23,045 nt of DNA from a virus, in the IMG/VR virus record IMGVR_UViG_3300025769_011870, positions 1 to 23,045 of that record; one strand, written 5' to 3'. The notes beneath the pieces are model-generated. The model was given only the letters and a program-made list of their open reading frames with translations. It was not told the DNA's origin and searched no databases. The position numbers were made by a program, and so were the translations under genes. Below, one piece after another: positions 4,238 to 23,025 of the stretch; positions within the stretch are counted from its first letter, which is position 1; the number at the start of each line of letters is the position of its first letter.

Positions 4238-7200
4238 AGTTTCCACGTCTTGAACGCTCTTCCGCGAGTTGAGAAGCCCCAATCTTCATTATAGTTGGGT
4301 CGGATCATGTAGAGCTTGTTTGTAGAAATGGTGTCGCCCATTTGCAAATCAACGCCCCAACAACGGATCCTGATGTTAGCGGAGTTAGAGTCCGTGGCTT
4401 CAACAATAAGGTAGTCCTTGCCGTTCTTTGTCTTCTTTGGCACAACCTTGCGAGGAATAAGCCAGGTGACTTGGAGGTCTGGGTCGTACTCGGAAATGGG
4501 AGGAATGCCCATCGCAGTCAACTTGTCCATCGTTTCAGGCTTGACAACCCGGTTCAGCGGGAACTGGCCGGTGAGGTCAATAAGAGACTGGATCTTCTCT
4601 TCCTCGGTGAAGTCGCCTTCGGGGCGGTAAAGATCGATGTTCTCGGCAAGGTTCTTCAACTTTCGTGGACGGTCAACAGCGACAGCAGACCAGAAATGCT
4701 TGAGCCCTGTAAAGCGAGTGTCAACCAGTTCGTGCATCGCACCAGAGCGACAAAGCACATCCAGAGCCTTCTTGTTCAACTTGGAATAACGCATCTTTTC
4801 GTTGAACAGGAAGTCCTCGACCTGTTGGAACGGGCGGCCAATGAAGATCTGGTCAATAGCCGCGTCCCCAAGACCCTTGACGGAAGTTAGAGGCTGAATA
4901 AGCGTCTTGCCATCGGCAGAGATCTCCCAAACACGACCAGAAGTGTTGACATTCAGCGGAGCGATCTTGAAACCGAACTGCTTGGCAGTTGAAATAGCCT
5001 TTTCCTTGCGGGTTTCCGGCTCCTTGTCCAAGAAAGCTGCCATCCACTCTGCGGGGTAGTAGGTGAAAAGCCAAGCACACTGGTAAGAAATGATCGAATA
5101 GCAAACGGCGTGAGACTTGTTGAAGCCATAGCCAGAGAAGTATTCGAAGGTTTCCCAAAGACGCTGGGCGGTAGTCTGCTTTAGACCCTTCTCCAAGCAA
5201 CCAGCAACGAACTTTCCGTGAAGAGCAGCCTTGACCTTGGCTTCCTTGCCAGTGCCCTTCTTTGTAAGAACCTTGCGAAGCATGTTGCCTTCGTCAAGAG
5301 TCAAGTCCTTGCCCAACTTGTGGGCGAGCATGGCGATTTGCTCTTGGAAAATAAGGAAGCCGTTGGTTTCCTCGGTCACTTGGCGATGATCGTCGTTGAT
5401 GTACTTGACCATTCCAGGCTTGCGACGGGTCTTCACAAAGTCCTTGTCGACGTTGGCCGACAGAGGACCAGGGCGGAAGATCGAGGTAATAGCGGAAATG
5501 TCAATAATGTTGTTTGGCTTGACCCGCTTGCAGAGCGCCTGTGCGCCGCCCTCTGTGAACTGGAATGTGCCAGCCCACTTGCCCTTGTGGAAAACGTTCT
5601 TGTAAACCTTCTGATCGTCAAGATCCATCACATCAGGGTGAAGGTGCTTGTTGTAATAATCGAGAATGTCCGAGAACTCGGGGTTTTCGATTCCGTGATG
5701 GCGACGAAGGATGTGAGAGATCGCACCTTCGATCATTCGCAAGGTAGAAAGGCCAAGAAGGTCAAACTTGATGAAACCCATGGGTTCAAGGTGACGAACG
5801 TTCTGGCCCTCCGACCAAGGCGTCTGGCGAACATCCTTGGAAGAGATCAGAGGCATGTGATAGTCAAGGTCTTCCGCGATCACAACGCCGCCAGCATGAC
5901 GGGAGCAAGAGCGCACCTGGCCATAGAGAGCATCGACGTGCGTGGCCACATCAGGGTACTTTCGGAGGAAAGCCTGGAGCGTGGTGGAGTATTGCTTGAC
6001 CTCCTCGAAAGTTGGGGTGTAAACACCGGCCTTGATGCCGTGAGCCTTCTTGGCAGCACGGGTCGCCTCGGTCATCATCTTTCCAGTTACGGAGTTGACC
6101 TCGGTGAAGGGAATGCCATAAAGCTTGGAAATGTCCTTGATAAGAGACTTCAACTGAAGCGTGTTCCAGTTGGAGATCGGGGCGACAACATCAGACCCCC
6201 ACTTCTCAATAAGACGATCCTTCAGAACCATAGGATCCGACACATCATAGTCAATGTCAGGGTAGTCCGTGGCATCCTTCCGCAAGAATCTCTCAAACTG
6301 AAGTCCATACTTGATGGGGTTGACCTGCGTAATGTCCAGGGAGTAAGCGACAAGCGAACCAGCAGCCGAACCACGACCAGGGCCGGCAAGCATGATCTCC
6401 TTCGTAATGTTGTCGATCTCGTTCATCGTCAAGAAATACTTGGAGAAACCACGGTCAGCGATGACCCCAAGCTCGTATTCGAGGCGGTCGGTGTATTCCT
6501 TGTCGTTGTGGAGGTTCTTTGCCCGCAACCCCTCAAAGCAGAACTTGCGAAGGGCAGAGTCAGCAGTTTCACCCACCGGAATAACAAAGTCAGGCAAACG
6601 AACTGTGTTGTCAGGGAGGAAGTTCTCGATGCGCTCGTGGGCAATAGTGTAGGTGTTCAGCAGGGACTGACGCACCACGTCGTCGTCATAGGAGACACCT
6701 GCCTTCTCGGAATAGCGAAGGTAGTCCTCCCACATTTGGTTGCCGTTCTTTGGGTAAAGCTCATAGCCGATCTCGTCAACATCGGTGGGAAGTTCACCAT
6801 CGTCAGCCCAAGACGGGCGGCCCTTGCCAAGCCAGCCAAGACGCTTGTAAAGTTCACGGTCCTTCCAAGCAGTAGGGTTGGGATAATGCGAATCCGCAGT
6901 AGAAATGAGAGGAATGTTGAACTCCTCGTGCATCTGGATCACATAGCGGTTTAGATCGTGCTGCTCGGGCACAGCGTTCCACTGAAGCTCACCATGCCAA
7001 CGGTCGCCAAGGATGGAAATAAAACGCTTTGTGAGGCTCCTCATAGCATCCAGGACGGCTTCTTCGCCCTGCTCCCGGTGCTCCCAGTAGCAGCCAGCAT
7101 AAACGCCCCCAAGGCAAGCAGAGGCCGCGATGATGCCCTCGCCATACTTTTCCAAAAGATCGAAATCGATGCGAGGATAACGATAAAAGTTTTCAGGCTG

Positions 7201-8503: not shown

Positions 8504-9363
8504 AGGGCGTCTGTGATCTTTCCTAAATAGCCTGTGGGTTTCTTCGTAGAGGTTAAAAGCTCGTGGAGTTCTTCATAGTGGAACTCAAAGCGTGGGTCGA
8601 TTTCGTAATAACGGCGAATTTGGGGATGAACCTCTCTTTCGGCGGGTTCGAGGATGATGGAAAGATATTTTTGCTTTCCTCCTCGTTTCTTGTCAATGCC
8701 GTTTTTGCTGCCTTTGATGCCTGCCTTTTTCATCATTTCTTCGACGACAAATTTGACCATTGTGTCGGAATATTCGAAGTCTCCAAGTTGGGCGTCGGTG
8801 AGATGGGAGATGGCAACGAGGTCTTTGAAGGTTTTATTGTCGGAGCGGTCTGTTGGGTAGAAAAAAATTTGGCTCGCGAAATCGCCTTCGCCTTTGAGGG
8901 TTTTCACGTCGTGGACGGAGCAACGACGGACATTTACCCAATCGACAACCCGGTTCTTTTCCTTTATTTCGCCCGAAATGTCGGGCAGGCCGGCGATGCC
9001 TTCGTCGTCAAAAATGTGTAGTTTCGTAAATGTGCCTTTTATGAGCCGCTGGTTCTTTGTGACTATTCTAAGGTTGTTTTCCTCGACCCTTATGCTTCCT
9101 GCGAGGTCTGAAAGTGGCACCAACCCTGCGAGTCCAAGCAAGAGCATTAGCCTTTGCCAAACGAACCTTTCGTCGTAAGCCTGGAACGGCTCCAAGCCCA
9201 TAAAAGAGAGGTCATAGTCCTCGCTGATCTCGTTGAACCTAAACGGCTCGTTTGATGAGGCGAATAGGACTGGTAATCGCCTCATAAACGCAAAGAGCAA
9301 GGCTGCCGTGGAAGATCCCAAGACAACCTCGCCCCACTCATAGATGTGTCTGTCAAGCCTCAT
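8500..9363 (-). CDS. Unassigned protein, dinucleotide-binding-like N-terminus
   Basis: 287 residues. The opening WGEVVLGSSTAALLFAFM is hydrophobic strand, glycine/small-residue turn, hydrophobic helix. This resembles a Rossmann beta-alpha start of FAD/NAD-binding proteins but lacks the full GxGxxG. LPVLFASSNEPFRF follows as the next strand. Later parts include DVKTLKGEGDFASQIFFYP, a Lys/Gly-rich patch (GSKNGIDKKRGGK) and an acidic C-terminus. I do not recognise a family, though proteins with this opening look familiar from marine phages. It overlaps its neighbours by ATGA at both ends (CPBP protease gene upstream, nucleotidyltransferase-like gene downstream), suggesting a joint function with the latter. 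Confidence 0.7.
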   Translation of the reverse strand: MRLDRHIYEWGEVVLGSSTAALLFAFMRRLPVLFASSNEPFRFNEISEDYDLSFMGLEPFQAYDERFVWQRLMLLLGLAGLVPLSDLAGSIRVEENNLRIVTKNQRLIKGTFTKLHIFDDEGIAGLPDISGEIKEKNRVVDWVNVRRCSVHDVKTLKGEGDFASQIFFYPTDRSDNKTFKDLVAISHLTDAQLGDFEYSDTMVKFVVEEMMKKAGIKGSKNGIDKKRGGKQKYLSIILEPAEREVHPQIRRYYEIDPRFEFHYEELHELLTSTKKPTGYLGKITDAL

Positions 9364-9782
9364 AGAAGAGTTAGCAGGATCCCTGTGGTGTTATGGGCAA
9401 TGTGCGCTGCCATTGGATATTTGATGCTGCCAGTCGTCAGCCTTAGCCAGCCCAAAAAGAAAGAAATGGGCATAAGTGCTAAAATGATCTCATAGTCCAT
9501 ATGACAAACCGCGAACAGAATAGATGTTATGATCATAACTTGTTCTTGGTTGAACACTCTGCTAAAAATCCGCCACAAAAAGCTTCGGAAAGCCCACTCT
9601 TCCAAGAGGGGAGACAGAATCACAAGACTAAAAACAATAAAGTACAAACTCACGCCAAAAACGTCCTCTGACAGCTTCTGGAGTTCTATGGCGGACTCGG
9701 GCGCTTCTGTCAGAGCAGAGTAAATGGTAGAAACCAATAGATTTATTAGCATACCACCTGCTATTGGCGTGAGGTACTTCAC
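9360..9782 (-). CDS. CPBP-family intramembrane metalloprotease
   Basis: 140-residue integral membrane protein of the CAAX protease/bacteriocin-processing (ABI/CPBP) superfamily, shorter than the usual 200-280 residues. The three signatures are present: EEWAFR (Glu61, Glu62, Arg66), FAVCH (Phe90, His94) and HIAHN (His127, Asn131). Four hydrophobic segments run approximately 7-24, 43-60, 82-99 and 102-117, with a final one at 123-140. Family members cleave or modify membrane proteins and prenylated peptides, and some protect against bacteriocins. Its substrate here is unknown; the position next to the lysis-type genes suggests action on the host envelope. The start is GTG, overlapping the small basic gene upstream by 4 bp. 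Confidence 0.85.
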   Translation of the reverse strand: MKYLTPIAGGMLINLLVSTIYSALTEAPESAIELQKLSEDVFGVSLYFIVFSLVILSPLLEEWAFRSFLWRIFSRVFNQEQVMIITSILFAVCHMDYEIILALMPISFFLGWLRLTTGSIKYPMAAHIAHNTTGILLTLL

Positions 9783-9928: not shown

Positions 9929-10157
9929 CACTCACCTCCGAGAAATAAACTTTTAGATCTGAACAACCGCCGATGAACTCTCCATCACAAAAAATTTGTG
10001 GGAGGGTTTCGCATCCGGTGGCTTCGGTAAGAGCCTCTTTTGCCTCTTCATCGTTCGTCACGTTAAACACACGAAAGTCGCAACCTTGTCTTACAAGGAT
10101 GCTGACTGCCTCAACACAAAAGTTGCAATAACTTGCCGTATATACATCATATGTCAT
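9912..10157 (-). CDS. Glutaredoxin
   Basis: 81-residue thiol oxidoreductase. The start MTYDVYTASYCNFC places the CxxC active site at Cys11/Cys14; the family also shows the cis-Pro TLPQIF (51-56) and the glutathione-binding GGCSDL (63-68), where GGxxDL is typical. Length is normal for glutaredoxin. I chose ATG at 10157 because it overlaps the transglycosylase stop (TAATG) and has GGAGGAG upstream; a longer in-frame reading is only the preceding gene in another frame. It probably reduces the phage ribonucleotide reductase or other proteins, alongside thioredoxin. Its place among lysis-type genes is not explained. Confidence 0.92.
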   Translation of the reverse strand: MTYDVYTASYCNFCVEAVSILVRQGCDFRVFNVTNDEEAKEALTEATGCETLPQIFCDGEFIGGCSDLKVYFSEVSDECEE

Positions 10158-10621
10158 TATTCGTTCTCCTCCTCTGTTTTTAGCTTCTTCCTCATAGAAG
10201 AAAGTGCCTTGTCGTATTCCAGCTTGGAAGCATAAACCTTTCTGGCATAGTTGTAAGACCACTGTGGAGGGTTGTAGCCTCCGTTGTAGAAAGCCAAAGC
10301 CCTAACAGGGTCTTGCTGAACTTCTAGGCTATTAAGAAAGTCGATTCCAACCTTGAGGTTCTGAATAGGGTTGTAGAGATCTCTTGCTTCTAGGCGCTGC
10401 ATGCGATGCCAGTGCCATCTTGGAATTACTTGCATAAGACCTCGATCATCTGACTCACCAAGAGCATTTGGGTCACAACGACTCTCGTGGTGCACAACGC
10501 TCAAAATAAGTGTCTTTTCAACACCGTTGCTTTCTGAGATCATCTCAATGTTTTCGGCCAACTCTGGTGTTCCAAAGGTGGTGCCGCAAACTGCTGCTAC
10601 AAGATTAACCCACTTCATCAT
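10157..10621 (-). CDS. Lytic transglycosylase (SLT domain), exported
   Basis: 154 residues. A hydrophobic N-terminus (MMKWVNLVAAVCGTTFGT) looks like a signal peptide or anchor, though its basic end is weak. The SLT domain follows: ILSVVHHESRCDP with catalytic Glu46, then the GLMQVIP motif (61-67), LYNPIQNLKVGIDFLN, and ALAFYNGGYNP, which corresponds to the AYNAG motif. It cleaves peptidoglycan between MurNAc and GlcNAc. The C-terminus is a Lys/Glu-rich tail. The start overlaps the matrixin stop region by 17 bp and it follows the PAS/two-TM and matrixin genes, so it is the likely endolysin or a cell-wall entry enzyme. Two adjacent ATGs (10621, 10618) are both possible. Confidence 0.92.
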   Translation of the reverse strand: MMKWVNLVAAVCGTTFGTPELAENIEMISESNGVEKTLILSVVHHESRCDPNALGESDDRGLMQVIPRWHWHRMQRLEARDLYNPIQNLKVGIDFLNSLEVQQDPVRALAFYNGGYNPPQWSYNYARKVYASKLEYDKALSSMRKKLKTEEENE

Positions 10622-11270
10622 TTACTCTCCTCGTTCGAAATGCTAAAATGGCTGCCCACCAAAAAGGAAAGTTTCCTACATGCTGACAACCTGAATCTTT
10701 GACTTCATCAGCAGTAGTTCTATTGTAAATAGTTGTTACTGCCTCGATATCGTCATTATGAATAGTGCGGATCTCGCCAGGCTTTATTCTGTCGTGCATA
10801 ACCGCCTCTCTAACCTCGCTATGGCCAAGGCCAAGGGCATGACCGACTTCGTGGCGAACAGTTGAAAGAAGATCGACGCTCAATGGATCATCGCCCCAGC
10901 CGTTAGGTGGATCGGCTTGAAGCAGAAGATCAAACTCCGCAATCACGCCTTCCGAGTTGACCCAGACACGAGTTACTGCGAGGGTTGTGGATGGGTGCTC
11001 CCACTCTGTAAGAAACCCAACCTCGCTGATTCCATTTTGTTCGTCTCTTGCCTCGTCTGTTGGGCGGCCTCCATAAAAGCGAACCAGACTATCGCTGGCT
11101 TCTTCCCACTCTTCAAAGCCTTCGTGGATAATGTCAATAGCCTCTGGGAATGGTGCTGATCCAACATCCATCCGGTAATCAATGGCCGTTTCAGCCCACC
11201 TGATAGGGACGCCCTCAGGGGTTTCCTGTTGCGTCCAAGCAAGCGCGGCGGTTGCCATAAGTGTTAGCAT
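10605..11270 (-). CDS. Matrixin-like secreted zinc metalloprotease
   Basis: 221-residue metzincin protease. A short hydrophobic start (MLTLMATAALAWT) suggests a signal peptide. The zinc motif HEVGHALGLGH places His140, Glu141, His144 and His150; Met158 in REAVMH fits the Met-turn. Upstream, EWEEASDSLVRF and the Asp/Gly stretch PPNGWGDDP match matrixin structure. The C-terminus is Cys195, a short hydrophobic stretch FPFWWAAILAF (201-211), then Arg/Arg: a tail resembling MYXO-CTERM or PEP-CTERM-like sorting signals of Myxococcota surface proteases, here without clear family proof. No propeptide Cys switch is visible. It has its own promoter. It might cut the host envelope or cell-surface proteins during lysis. 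Confidence 0.9.
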   Translation of the reverse strand: MLTLMATAALAWTQQETPEGVPIRWAETAIDYRMDVGSAPFPEAIDIIHEGFEEWEEASDSLVRFYGGRPTDEARDEQNGISEVGFLTEWEHPSTTLAVTRVWVNSEGVIAEFDLLLQADPPNGWGDDPLSVDLLSTVRHEVGHALGLGHSEVREAVMHDRIKPGEIRTIHNDDIEAVTTIYNRTTADEVKDSGCQHVGNFPFWWAAILAFRTRRVNDEVG

Positions 11271-11320: not shown

Positions 11321-12046
11321 CTAATCTTGGACTCTATTTCTGGAGTCGAACACAGAGGCCATCGCAGATCCCAAAATGCCTGTTAGGACCAAAAGAACTC
11401 GTTCGATCATCGCAAGACCATCGGGGTCGGTTGTGCCTGTGGCCCACTGAGCGACGATCAGCATTCCAAGCATCATTATGAGTCCAACAGTTCCAGCAAA
11501 GATCTGCCTCAAAAGGGTTATTTGACCTGAAAGGCGTTTTTGTCTCAATAGGCCGTCTTCTGCTAAAAGCTTGGCTTCGTTTGCCTCTGATTTGGCTATT
11601 TCTGCTTTTTTGAGGGCTTCTTGTAGTTCTTTTTCTCTTTCTACCTCTGGGCCTCTGTCTTTGAAGAAAGCAACGAAATAACGCTCTTCTGTGTTTCTGA
11701 CATCACAAACATTTGCTGACAGAGGAGCAAGCGTTCCATCGGCTCTAACACCTTCTAACTTTCTCCAAGCACCCATAATGGTGCTTGGTCTAACCTTGCC
11801 ACCGTTGGCTTTTTCAACATATGTGGAAACATTTGATCTGTGGTTTTGAGCTATTTTTGGTGGCATCAAAGAGCGCACATCCAGCCCGATCATCGCCTTT
11901 TGACTTGGGTAGCCAAAAAGAGCGACGGCAGGGCCATTAGCATAGAGTATTTCTATGTTGCCGCTGCCGTCTGTTGGGACTGAGCCAATAACCATTGCTA
12001 TTTGTGCTCTTTCACCGATGTATTCTATCGTTTCTATGACTTTCAT
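11321..12046 (-). CDS. PAS domain fused to coiled coil and two TM segments
   Basis: 241 residues. A PAS domain (about 15-130) shows ILYANGPAVALFGYPSQ, a LMPPKIAQNH loop, RADGTLAPLSANV and YFVAFFKDR, the usual PAS strand order. The region corresponding to the FixL heme His (RPSTIMG) has no His, so a heme sensor of that type is unlikely. Residues 134-170 are a Glu/Lys/Ala coiled coil. Two transmembrane helices (182-202 and 212-233) with a short loop containing TTDPDG end the protein, and a charged tail follows. There is no kinase, cyclase or DNA-binding output, so the membrane pair is the output: possibly a holin whose opening is controlled by the PAS domain. The gene lies immediately before protease and transglycosylase genes. 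The start was chosen at ATG 12046. Confidence 0.8.
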   Translation of the reverse strand: MKVIETIEYIGERAQIAMVIGSVPTDGSGNIEILYANGPAVALFGYPSQKAMIGLDVRSLMPPKIAQNHRSNVSTYVEKANGGKVRPSTIMGAWRKLEGVRADGTLAPLSANVCDVRNTEERYFVAFFKDRGPEVEREKELQEALKKAEIAKSEANEAKLLAEDGLLRQKRLSGQITLLRQIFAGTVGLIMMLGMLIVAQWATGTTDPDGLAMIERVLLVLTGILGSAMASVFDSRNRVQD

Positions 12047-12313: not shown

Positions 12314-12345
12314 AAAAAAAGGTGTTAGGCAACCACCCACCTAAC
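12314..12345 (-). terminator. Intrinsic terminator at the end of the structured RNA
   Basis: Hairpin GTTAGG (12345-12340)/CCTAAC (12329-12324) with a 10-base loop, followed after ACC by seven T residues (12320-12314). The T-run is followed almost at once by the ribosome-binding site of the 77-residue gene, so it could also act as an attenuator. Confidence 0.8.
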
Positions 12346-12554
12346 TGACTGTTTCCAGTCCCACCCGCAGATTAGCAATCATGGAGTTTATCCCTCTCCT
12401 GCTTGATCCTTACAATCGGGGTAACTTCATTATGGAATAGAGTGGTGGGGTTTAAACCCACAGGTGTTCAAGTATTCCTTTGTTAGACTCTTATTCCTTG
12501 AACCGGGTCGTTTATCGTCTCAGTAGAACCCTGCGTAATACCGCCTCACTCTAT
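12314..12554 (-). ncRNA. Structured RNA or attenuator leader with tRNA-like end domain
   Basis: About 240 nt without a convincing reading frame, running from a strong promoter to an intrinsic terminator. From the predicted start (12554) eight bases, ATAGAGTG, pair perfectly with CACTCTAT (12444-12437). Directly abutting is a 5-bp hairpin GTGGG-TTTAAAC-CCCAC (12461-12445) with a 7-base T-loop-like sequence, and after the stem come T and CCA (12436-12433). In between are three possible hairpins, including GTTCAAG/CTTGAAC around a 24-base loop. After position 12433 there is a long imperfect hairpin, then GACTG-GAAA-CAGTC (12360-12347), a perfect GNRA-type stem, and the terminator. I cannot match it to a known RNA. 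It lacks a cloverleaf and an anticodon arm of normal size. Confidence 0.65.
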
Positions 12555-12875
12555 GTTCATAGTATACCACCCACCAATCCGTCCGTCAAGTCTTGAAAGT
12601 AGATTTACAGAGGTGTGAGTGCCATCTGGATCGGGCGAAATCTCTTGCAACTTATCATCAAGCATTTTGATTTCTTCTGCCGCTCTGCGACAAAGAGACT
12701 CAAGACGAAGAACCTCAAGAAAATAAACTTGTTCATCCAAGCGTCCGTATTTGATGAGCATACGCTTCATAACAGCAGTTGCAGTAGATTCAGGAAAATA
12801 CTTTTTTGCGTTTTGGATAACTTCATCGTCAGACATTTGAGCGATTTCCTTTGCAATTTGATCTTCCATGCTCAT
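12546..12875 (-). CDS. Small helical protein of unknown function
   Basis: 109 residues starting MSMEDQIAKEIAQMSDDEVI. It is mostly helical, with probable coiled coil across YFLEVLRLESLCRRAAEEIKMLDDKL (about 50-80). I recognise no family. ATG at 12875 overlaps the upstream stop in ATGA. The 3' end doubles as the promoter of the structured RNA: the last codons (GGWYTMNIE) contain the -10 box TATACT. This dual use may constrain the C-terminal sequence. Confidence 0.72.
   Translation of the reverse strand: MSMEDQIAKEIAQMSDDEVIQNAKKYFPESTATAVMKRMLIKYGRLDEQVYFLEVLRLESLCRRAAEEIKMLDDKLQEISPDPDGTHTSVNLLSRLDGRIGGWYTMNIE
12561..12589 (-). promoter_or_regulatory. Strong promoter of the structured RNA
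   Basis: TTGACG (12584-12589), 17-bp spacer, TATACT (12561-12566). It lies inside the 3' end of the upstream 109-residue gene, and the predicted transcription start coincides with the first base of the closing stem of the RNA. Confidence 0.85.
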
Positions 12876-14769: not shown

Positions 14770-14945
14770 TCTTCGTTTTCCCTTTTTTCAAAGTGTGTGT
14801 CTGGGCTTCCTGTGTACCAAACCTTCTTAAAATCATTCATCTCAATGAGAATGTCAATAAGGTCTTCAAGAACATCGTTGACTTCTTCTAGGCTCTCAGG
14901 GCTTTCGGCGTTAACAAGGCGGAAAAGGGTCTTGCGAATGTTCAT
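14766..14945 (-). CDS. Tiny acidic helical protein
   Basis: 59 residues from ATG at 14945 (MNIRKTLFRLVNAESPESLEEV...). Residues 15-45 are a Leu/Ile/Glu/Asp-rich helix (LEEVNDVLEDLIDILIEMND); the C-terminus is GSPDTHFEKRENEE. I take ATG 14945 rather than an upstream ATG because it overlaps the upstream stop (ATGA) and follows GCGAGGG. Function unknown. A MazG-like helical fragment is possible, but the sequence is too short to judge. Confidence 0.65.
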   Translation of the reverse strand: MNIRKTLFRLVNAESPESLEEVNDVLEDLIDILIEMNDFKKVWYTGSPDTHFEKRENEE

Positions 14946-15196
14946 TGTGGCCCTCGCAGAAGCCAAAAACATATCGCAATCGGTACAAGCCCAATGATCC
15001 AAGATATTCCACAGCACCCAGAAGTCAGGAGAACAATCATCCCAACGACATCATCATTGCCCGGTGCAACTTCAGCTATGGAACCCGCCGTCCAACCAAA
15101 CCACAAAGAGACGATCAGGGCAGCCCAAAGAAAAGCCGTTGTGATCTGTGCCCACCAAACAAGGTTGTTCCAACTGTACCATCCTTCAAATTTCAT
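14942..15196 (-). CDS. Small two-TM membrane protein
   Basis: 84 residues. Trp-rich N-terminus (MKFEGWYSWNNLVWWAQ), TM1 about 17-40, a polar loop with EVAPGNDD, and TM2 about 50-78 with a Gly/Cys-rich start (SGCCGISWIIG). It ends LLRGPQ. No family is recognised. It may be a membrane-modifying or superinfection-type phage protein. Its ATG lies within the last 11 bases of the DUF3310 gene and uses AGGAGG from that gene, so translation is coupled. Confidence 0.75.
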   Translation of the reverse strand: MKFEGWYSWNNLVWWAQITTAFLWAALIVSLWFGWTAGSIAEVAPGNDDVVGMIVLLTSGCCGISWIIGLVPIAICFWLLRGPQ

Positions 15197-22791: not shown

Positions 22792-23025
22792 TCAGGTGCC
22801 TGTCGAAACGCCAGTGTCCGCGCTGCCAGTGTCACCTGTCTCACCAGTGGAACCCGTGGGAACCGTGGTGGGGGGAGTTGTTGGAGGAGTCGTAGTCCCC
22901 GTTGGCTCCGTGGTGGTTGTCTCTGAACCGGTGTCGCCACTGTCCTCCTTGTCTGACCCGCAGCCAAGAAGTAGTAGTGCTCCCATCACGGAAACACATA
23001 AGCGACCAAATAGATTACTGAACAT
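22792..23025 (-). CDS. Small Thr/Pro-rich lipoprotein with DTG repeats
   Basis: 77 residues. Signal peptide followed by the lipobox LLGC at residues 19-22 (SVMGALLLLGC), then a spacer rich in Asp, Thr, Gly, Pro and Ser with repeated DTG and GSTGETGDTG units. After processing only a ~55-residue disordered chain would remain, tethered to the membrane. The composition resembles surface lipoproteins of Myxococcota and related predatory/deltaproteobacterial groups, where DTG-rich linkers are common. In phages, small lipoproteins often block superinfection. The start at 23025 follows AAAGGAGAAAAC. There is no evidence for an enzymatic role. Confidence 0.78.
   Translation of the reverse strand: MFSNLFGRLCVSVMGALLLLGCGSDKEDSGDTGSETTTTEPTGTTTPPTTPPTTVPTGSTGETGDTGSADTGVSTGT

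Follow-up and report, generated by a model that had tools for sequence, protein, structure and literature searches.

A phage protein joining a FixL-type PAS domain to a membrane hairpin: a candidate heme-dependent factor in lysis

In this study, we analysed a whole virus record (the window, 23,045 bases), which is a linear IMG/VR contig and probably a genome fragment. It encodes a protein in which a PAS domain of the FixL/DosP type runs through one continuous predicted helix into a hairpin of two transmembrane (TM) helices, hereafter the PAS-hairpin protein (Table 1). The alignments and structure comparisons indicate that the PAS domain likely binds heme, and control of lysis by this protein is plausible. 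We tentatively believed that a heme-PAS sensor of O2, another gas or redox state drives a holin- or antiholin-like hairpin in the lysis machinery, a reading to which we give somewhat less than an even chance.

Architecture and the heme-type PAS domain

The ATG start was favoured because the gene coordinates fit it and most homologues start at the equivalent Met; the TTG two codons upstream would give a protein of 243 aa. In the PAS-hairpin protein, the NCBIfam model sensory_box TIGR00229 exceeded its cut-off (29.1 vs 22.9 bits), and Pfam PAS was marginally under its own (22.3 vs 22.6). Two hydrophobic TM segments were found at about residues 181-199 and 211-229. The AlphaFold prediction (12 family members, mean pLDDT 81.5) placed the PAS fold at residues 1-131, a helix at 132-203 and TM2 at 208-233, and the helix 132-203, which holds both the coiled-coil part and TM1, was unbroken. 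No kinase, cyclase, EAL, DNA-binding or other output domain was found in the 241 aa by Pfam, NCBIfam or AlphaFold. These results agreed with the initial annotation, which had described a PAS domain wired directly to two C-terminal TM helices, a coiled coil, and no kinase or DNA-binding output. The hairpin is flanked by basic residues, and an N-in, C-in topology is suggested by these charges only, because positive charges precede TM1 (RQKR) and follow TM2 (DSRNR). Small residues in TM2 are spaced in a way that suits helix packing (Gly223, Ser227 and Ser231; Gly226 and Ala230).

Table 1. Coordinates of the PAS-hairpin gene, its parts and its downstream neighbours in the window
Feature	Position	Strand	Remarks
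PAS + helix + two-TM-hairpin protein	11321..12046	-	ATG 12046, 241 aa; alternative TTG start 12052
FixL/DosP-type PAS domain	11651..12046	-	residues 1-132; phmmer, profile and structure matches
His69 codon (His71 from TTG start)	11840..11842	-	aligns with heme-ligating His200 of BjFixL
Arg95 codon (Arg97 from TTG start)	11762..11764	-	aligns with O2-binding Arg220 of BjFixL
Single continuous predicted helix	11438..11653	-	residues 132-203; coiled-coil part, then TM1 (about 181-203)
TM2 + cytoplasmic tip	11339..11410	-	MIERVLLVLTGILGSAMASVFDSR, residues 213-236; 88% mean pairwise identity
Matrixin (M10) metalloprotease	10605..11270	-	Pfam M10, 50 bits; signal-peptide-like N terminus; next downstream
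SLT lytic transglycosylase	10157..10621	-	63 bits; candidate muralytic enzyme of the neighbourhood

The initial annotation had held that the FixL-type heme histidine is absent, which proved wrong. The phmmer match of the PAS domain to FixL (E 1.8e-7) pairs MPPKIAQNH with FixL MPEPDRSRH without a gap, which sets His69 on BjFixL His200, and pairs TIMGAWR with FixL HIIGIGR, which sets Arg95 on BjFixL Arg220. In FixL, His194/His200 is the heme ligand, and Arg214/Arg220 interacts with heme-bound O2 (PMC10765370). Both residues were kept in 11 of the 12 aligned family members, down to about 50% identity. The sole member lacking both is the divergent L037, in which the stretch containing the His is gone and Gln replaces the Arg; it retains the helix and hairpin. 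The proximal Arg206 of FixL is not conserved in the PAS-hairpin protein.

When the family profile was compared with the PDB, FixL (1e-11), DosP (1.8e-7) and the heme-binding FG214 (6.8e-7) were matched, and non-heme PAS or LOV proteins appeared only at E > 0.05. In the structure comparison by VIA-align, the rows of which are filled by the PAS domain and thus concern the PAS fold and not that of the hairpin, the FixL heme domain (1d06) came top with Z 17.2, ranks 1-24 were heme-PAS chains except 3mfx (SO_1695), and the subsequent rows had Z <= 13.1. A flavin/LOV-type PAS was considered and rejected, as LOV proteins fell below heme-PAS in both the sequence and the structure rankings. The BFVD matches were phage and giant-virus PAS proteins, none recognisably of the PAS-hairpin type. 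The fold, the F-alpha His and the distal Arg of the FixL/DosP heme-PAS cluster 3 (PMC10468136) are all present. Studies have shown that about 60% of FixL-cluster PAS domains keep the heme His and about 40% have lost it (PMC10468136), so the presence of the His alone is not rare. The alignment and conservation of His and Arg, the sequence matches to FixL, DosP and FG214, and the heme-PAS structure ranks together make heme binding likely. The initial annotation had proposed a small ligand or redox state as the input; because the heme histidine is present, the likely input is more specific, namely heme (O2, gas or redox).

The PAS domain may instead bind no heme and belong to an ordinary membrane protein, in which it would mediate dimerisation, act as a scaffold or bind another ligand. 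This agrees with the loss of His from about 40% of the FixL cluster (PMC10468136), with the missing proximal Arg of FixL, and with L037, which has neither His nor Arg and yet keeps the helix and hairpin. We consider it unlikely, however, since His and Arg persist in 11 of the 12 members to about 50% identity and are lost jointly, and heme-PAS structures form the top group in the structure comparison.

The family, the PAS-less hairpin and the neighbouring genes

Homologues were found in no fewer than 12 further virus records, and the contigs with PAS-bearing relatives range from 6 to 376 kb; the family alignment comprises 12 members, and partial members are additional to it. The mean pairwise identity was highest in TM2 (88%), followed by the hairpin (74%), PAS (54%) and the coil (39%), so that TM2 with its tip is the most conserved part of the protein and the coiled-coil part the least. 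Synonymous sites were saturated and non-synonymous change was low (pS 0.83 and pN 0.036 for the hairpin, window vs the closest relative, L002). Because synonymous sites are saturated while amino-acid changes are few, the codon comparison indicates that purifying selection maintains the sensor and the hairpin alike. Its recurrence among these virus records and this selection pattern make the architecture more than a product of chance. In isolated phages no relatives of the PAS-hairpin protein were found, only one chance-level match, and the peptide patterns used recovered none in bacterial or archaeal genomes. Matches in plasmids were rejected as relatives, because those listed cover the PAS domain only.

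PAS-less proteins of 131-137 aa, in which the same hairpin is joined to a helix, were found in L015, L022-L030 and L044. The window protein and the 131-aa PAS-less protein of L015 shared 40% identity over 100 aa (pairwise E 2e-11). AlphaFold gave the PAS-less protein a single helix leading into TM1 and then TM2, with lower confidence. The tree built from helix and hairpin had the PAS-bearing proteins on one side and the PAS-less proteins on the other side of a single, very long branch, and therefore the direction of PAS gain or loss cannot be read from it.

In about ten small phages, wherever the upstream region is present, the PAS-less hairpin gene is the final gene of a compact cassette. The order is an endolysin with CHAP and PG_binding domains (identified by Pfam and PHROG), a 2-TM protein of about 82 aa, a protein of about 106 aa with one TM segment and a coiled coil, and then the hairpin. 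In those phages, the true holin may be this second and smaller 2-TM protein, which directly follows the endolysin. No homologue of it was found in the PAS-bearing records, most of which are fragments. Holins are known to diverge fast. Because the PAS-less versions are encoded in endolysin cassettes, a role of the hairpin in lysis is plausible, and this gene position of the homologues is the best evidence for it.

The neighbours of the PAS-bearing members are less uniform. In the window, the initial annotation had correctly read the gene as preceding a matrixin and a lytic transglycosylase, the latter two genes downstream. A promoter-like site with an extended -10 lies between the PAS-hairpin gene and the matrixin; because it separates them, we did not claim that the PAS, matrixin, SLT and glutaredoxin genes form one operon. 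In L037, an endolysin with VanY and PG_binding domains (PG_binding under the cut-off) lies immediately upstream of the PAS-hairpin gene; no Peptidase_M15_4 was found in the records, and the L037 enzyme matches VanY instead. In L038, an SLT transglycosylase is 2.6 kb upstream. In L008-L010, a CHAP protein is about 8 kb away, and in the 275-kb and 376-kb contigs over 100 kb separate the gene from an Amidase_2 endolysin, with no TM protein predicted within about 2 kb of that endolysin. Most PAS-bearing records had no muralytic gene within 3 kb. Some lineages thus show real linkage to lysis genes and others show none, and with three close cases in about nine lineages the linkage count alone does not exclude chance. 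As for gene order in other phages, the vicinity of lysis genes noted in the window recurs in L037 and L038 and fails in most PAS-bearing records.

Several further arrangements were observed. In L002, a matrixin is located about 1.1 kb from the PAS-hairpin gene; this lipoprotein-like protein (4586-5263, -) lies beside ThyX and the PAS-hairpin gene, and the metalloprotease and the PAS-hairpin gene stay close in both the window and L002. In L003, a GDSL/SGNH hydrolase with a C-terminal hydrophobic segment (801-1538, +) directly follows the PAS-hairpin gene and could act on envelope lipids or glycans. By eye, L013 (1-5291) shows an incomplete hairpin gene directly followed by a small-terminase-like gene, a 51-aa TM protein, the large terminase and the portal. 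Lambdoid phages keep their lysis genes at the equivalent place, before the terminase genes.

Proposed mechanism and alternative explanations

From these features we infer that the PAS-hairpin protein would be a one-component, membrane-bound phage sensor. Its cytoplasmic PAS domain would hold heme, with His69 as ligand and Arg95 on the distal side, and would respond to O2, another gas or redox state, and the C-terminal two-helix membrane hairpin would be the output. With no break in the helix between the PAS core and the membrane, any change at the heme site would be passed on to the TM hairpin alone, and the signal could act only via TM1 moving or re-pairing against TM2. The hairpin (putatively N-in and C-in, with a small-residue-rich TM2) would oligomerise in the inner membrane in a holin-, pinholin- or antiholin-like manner and so might affect the timing of lysis. 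Most likely, the protein acts in lysis, as an effector or a regulator, and its activity depends on the state of the heme. Judged from the sequence, the hairpin may be a pore, a pore restraint or an actor on some other membrane partner. The narrower version, in which the heme-PAS directly gates a membrane-pore hairpin, the oxygen or respiration state triggers or holds lysis, and the plain hairpin is the sensor-free version, seems rather doubtful to us.

The initial annotation had proposed a holin tuned by PAS, for which the two neighbouring genes were the sole ground. The PAS-less hairpin in endolysin cassettes and the L037 gene beside VanY give independent, though indirect, support for a link of this kind; on the other side, the gene is unlinked to lysis genes in the large phages, and comparison with holin families gave no match beyond chance in Pfam, PHROG or NCBIfam, either for the window protein or for its PAS-less relatives. 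Holins are usually far less conserved than TM2 of the PAS-hairpin protein, and this strong conservation may reflect a conserved partner instead of a lipid pore. It is therefore conceivable that the hairpin is not itself the pore and instead pairs, as an antiholin or lysis-inhibition factor, with a small holin of its own kind of phage; the heme-PAS would then delay or release the inhibition, in a role like that of T4 RI. The very high conservation of TM2 fits a protein-protein interface, environmental control of lysis via an antiholin has been described (PMC11413866), and the PAS-less homologues neighbour another 2-TM protein directly after the endolysin. For the PAS-less cassette phages, this last finding also speaks in part against the holin idea of the initial annotation, which had named a separate true holin next to an endolysin as contrary to it. 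In contrast, the cassette 2-TM protein has no homologue in the PAS-bearing records (mostly fragments), and only one other small membrane protein of holin size was noted in the window (14942-15196), away from the SLT gene; we regard this pairing as rather unlikely.

Equally, a membrane-anchored sensor might rewire the physiology or the signalling of the host, perhaps through partners such as host PAS kinases or respiratory proteins, and the lytic neighbours would then be coincidental. The position of the gene away from lysis genes in large phages fits this, as do the promoter-like site that divides the PAS gene from the matrixin and SLT genes in the window and the glutaredoxin and thioredoxin-like genes of the window, which suggest general redox traffic. 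Against this, about ten small phages have the same hairpin in an endolysin cassette that is conserved, and the PAS-hairpin gene of L037 stands directly behind the VanY endolysin, so we think that host rewiring is an unlikely explanation.

Returning to a heme-dependent lysis factor, we compared the protein with known systems. FixL, the heme-PAS O2 sensor kinase of Bradyrhizobium and Sinorhizobium, shares the PAS subfamily, the proximal His, the distal Arg and a signalling helix after the sensor; unlike FixL, the phage protein has no histidine kinase, its signalling helix continues into the C-terminal TM hairpin, and Arg206 is not kept. The E. coli phosphodiesterase DosP (EcDOS) and the one-component regulator FG214, whose heme coordination is bis-His or His-Met (PMC13060918), also have a near heme-PAS and an output in the same protein, but their output is EAL or HTH, whereas that of the phage protein is membrane helices. 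Class II holins such as phage 21 S, which are N-in and C-in (PMC9636201), resemble the hairpin in their two closely spaced TM helices, probably cytoplasmic ends and small-residue-rich TM2, and the endolysin cassettes of the PAS-less relatives add to this likeness. In contrast to these holins, the phage protein has 241 aa with a sensor domain, has no holin-family match, and its hairpin is strongly conserved between distant phages. The T4 holin T and antiholin RI are alike in that a membrane protein couples lysis time to an environmental signal (a candidate property here), but RI is a separate periplasmic protein responding to superinfection, whereas here a candidate cytoplasmic heme-type PAS is in the same chain. 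In Eag/hERG-type K+ channels, an N-terminal PAS (eag) domain acts directly on membrane helices; this is an analogy only, as the pore is unrelated and there is no firm heme cofactor.

It is known that phages adapt lysis in response to superinfection, and in the literature searched we found no lysis-type membrane protein with a gas or redox sensor of its own. If our reading is true, lysis would be linked to oxygen and energy state, which vary sharply in biofilms and sediments; in the narrower version, the phage would have a one-protein, environment-sensing lysis timer. The protein would also be a natural PAS with a membrane-helix output, useful for engineered controllable lysis.

Other features of the window

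The best NCBIfam model for the matrixin was the myxosortase-dependent metalloprotease MXAN_2677/2678 (below cut-off), and its C terminus has a Cys / hydrophobic / Arg tail (GCQHVGNFPFWWAAILAFRTRR). A CPBP/CAAX protease (9360-9782, -), which lies three to four genes past it, resembles MrtJ and the myxosortase core (below cut-off). Together they may form a C-terminal sorting pair carried by the phage, or they may have been acquired from a Myxococcota-like host.

At 12317-12556 (-), about 215 nt without an ORF lie between a good promoter-like site (12589-12561, 10/12) and a terminator-like stem with a T run (12345-12324). This is a possible phage non-coding RNA; it had no Rfam match, folded no better than shuffles, and had no similar DNA in isolated phages. 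The small membrane protein at 14942-15196 (-), 84 aa long, contains two or three hydrophobic segments and matched no family; it could be a holin of the window phage. At the contig end, a short Thr/Gly/Pro-rich lipoprotein-like ORF (22792-23025, -) is of a style that we take to be that of Myxococcota and related hosts.
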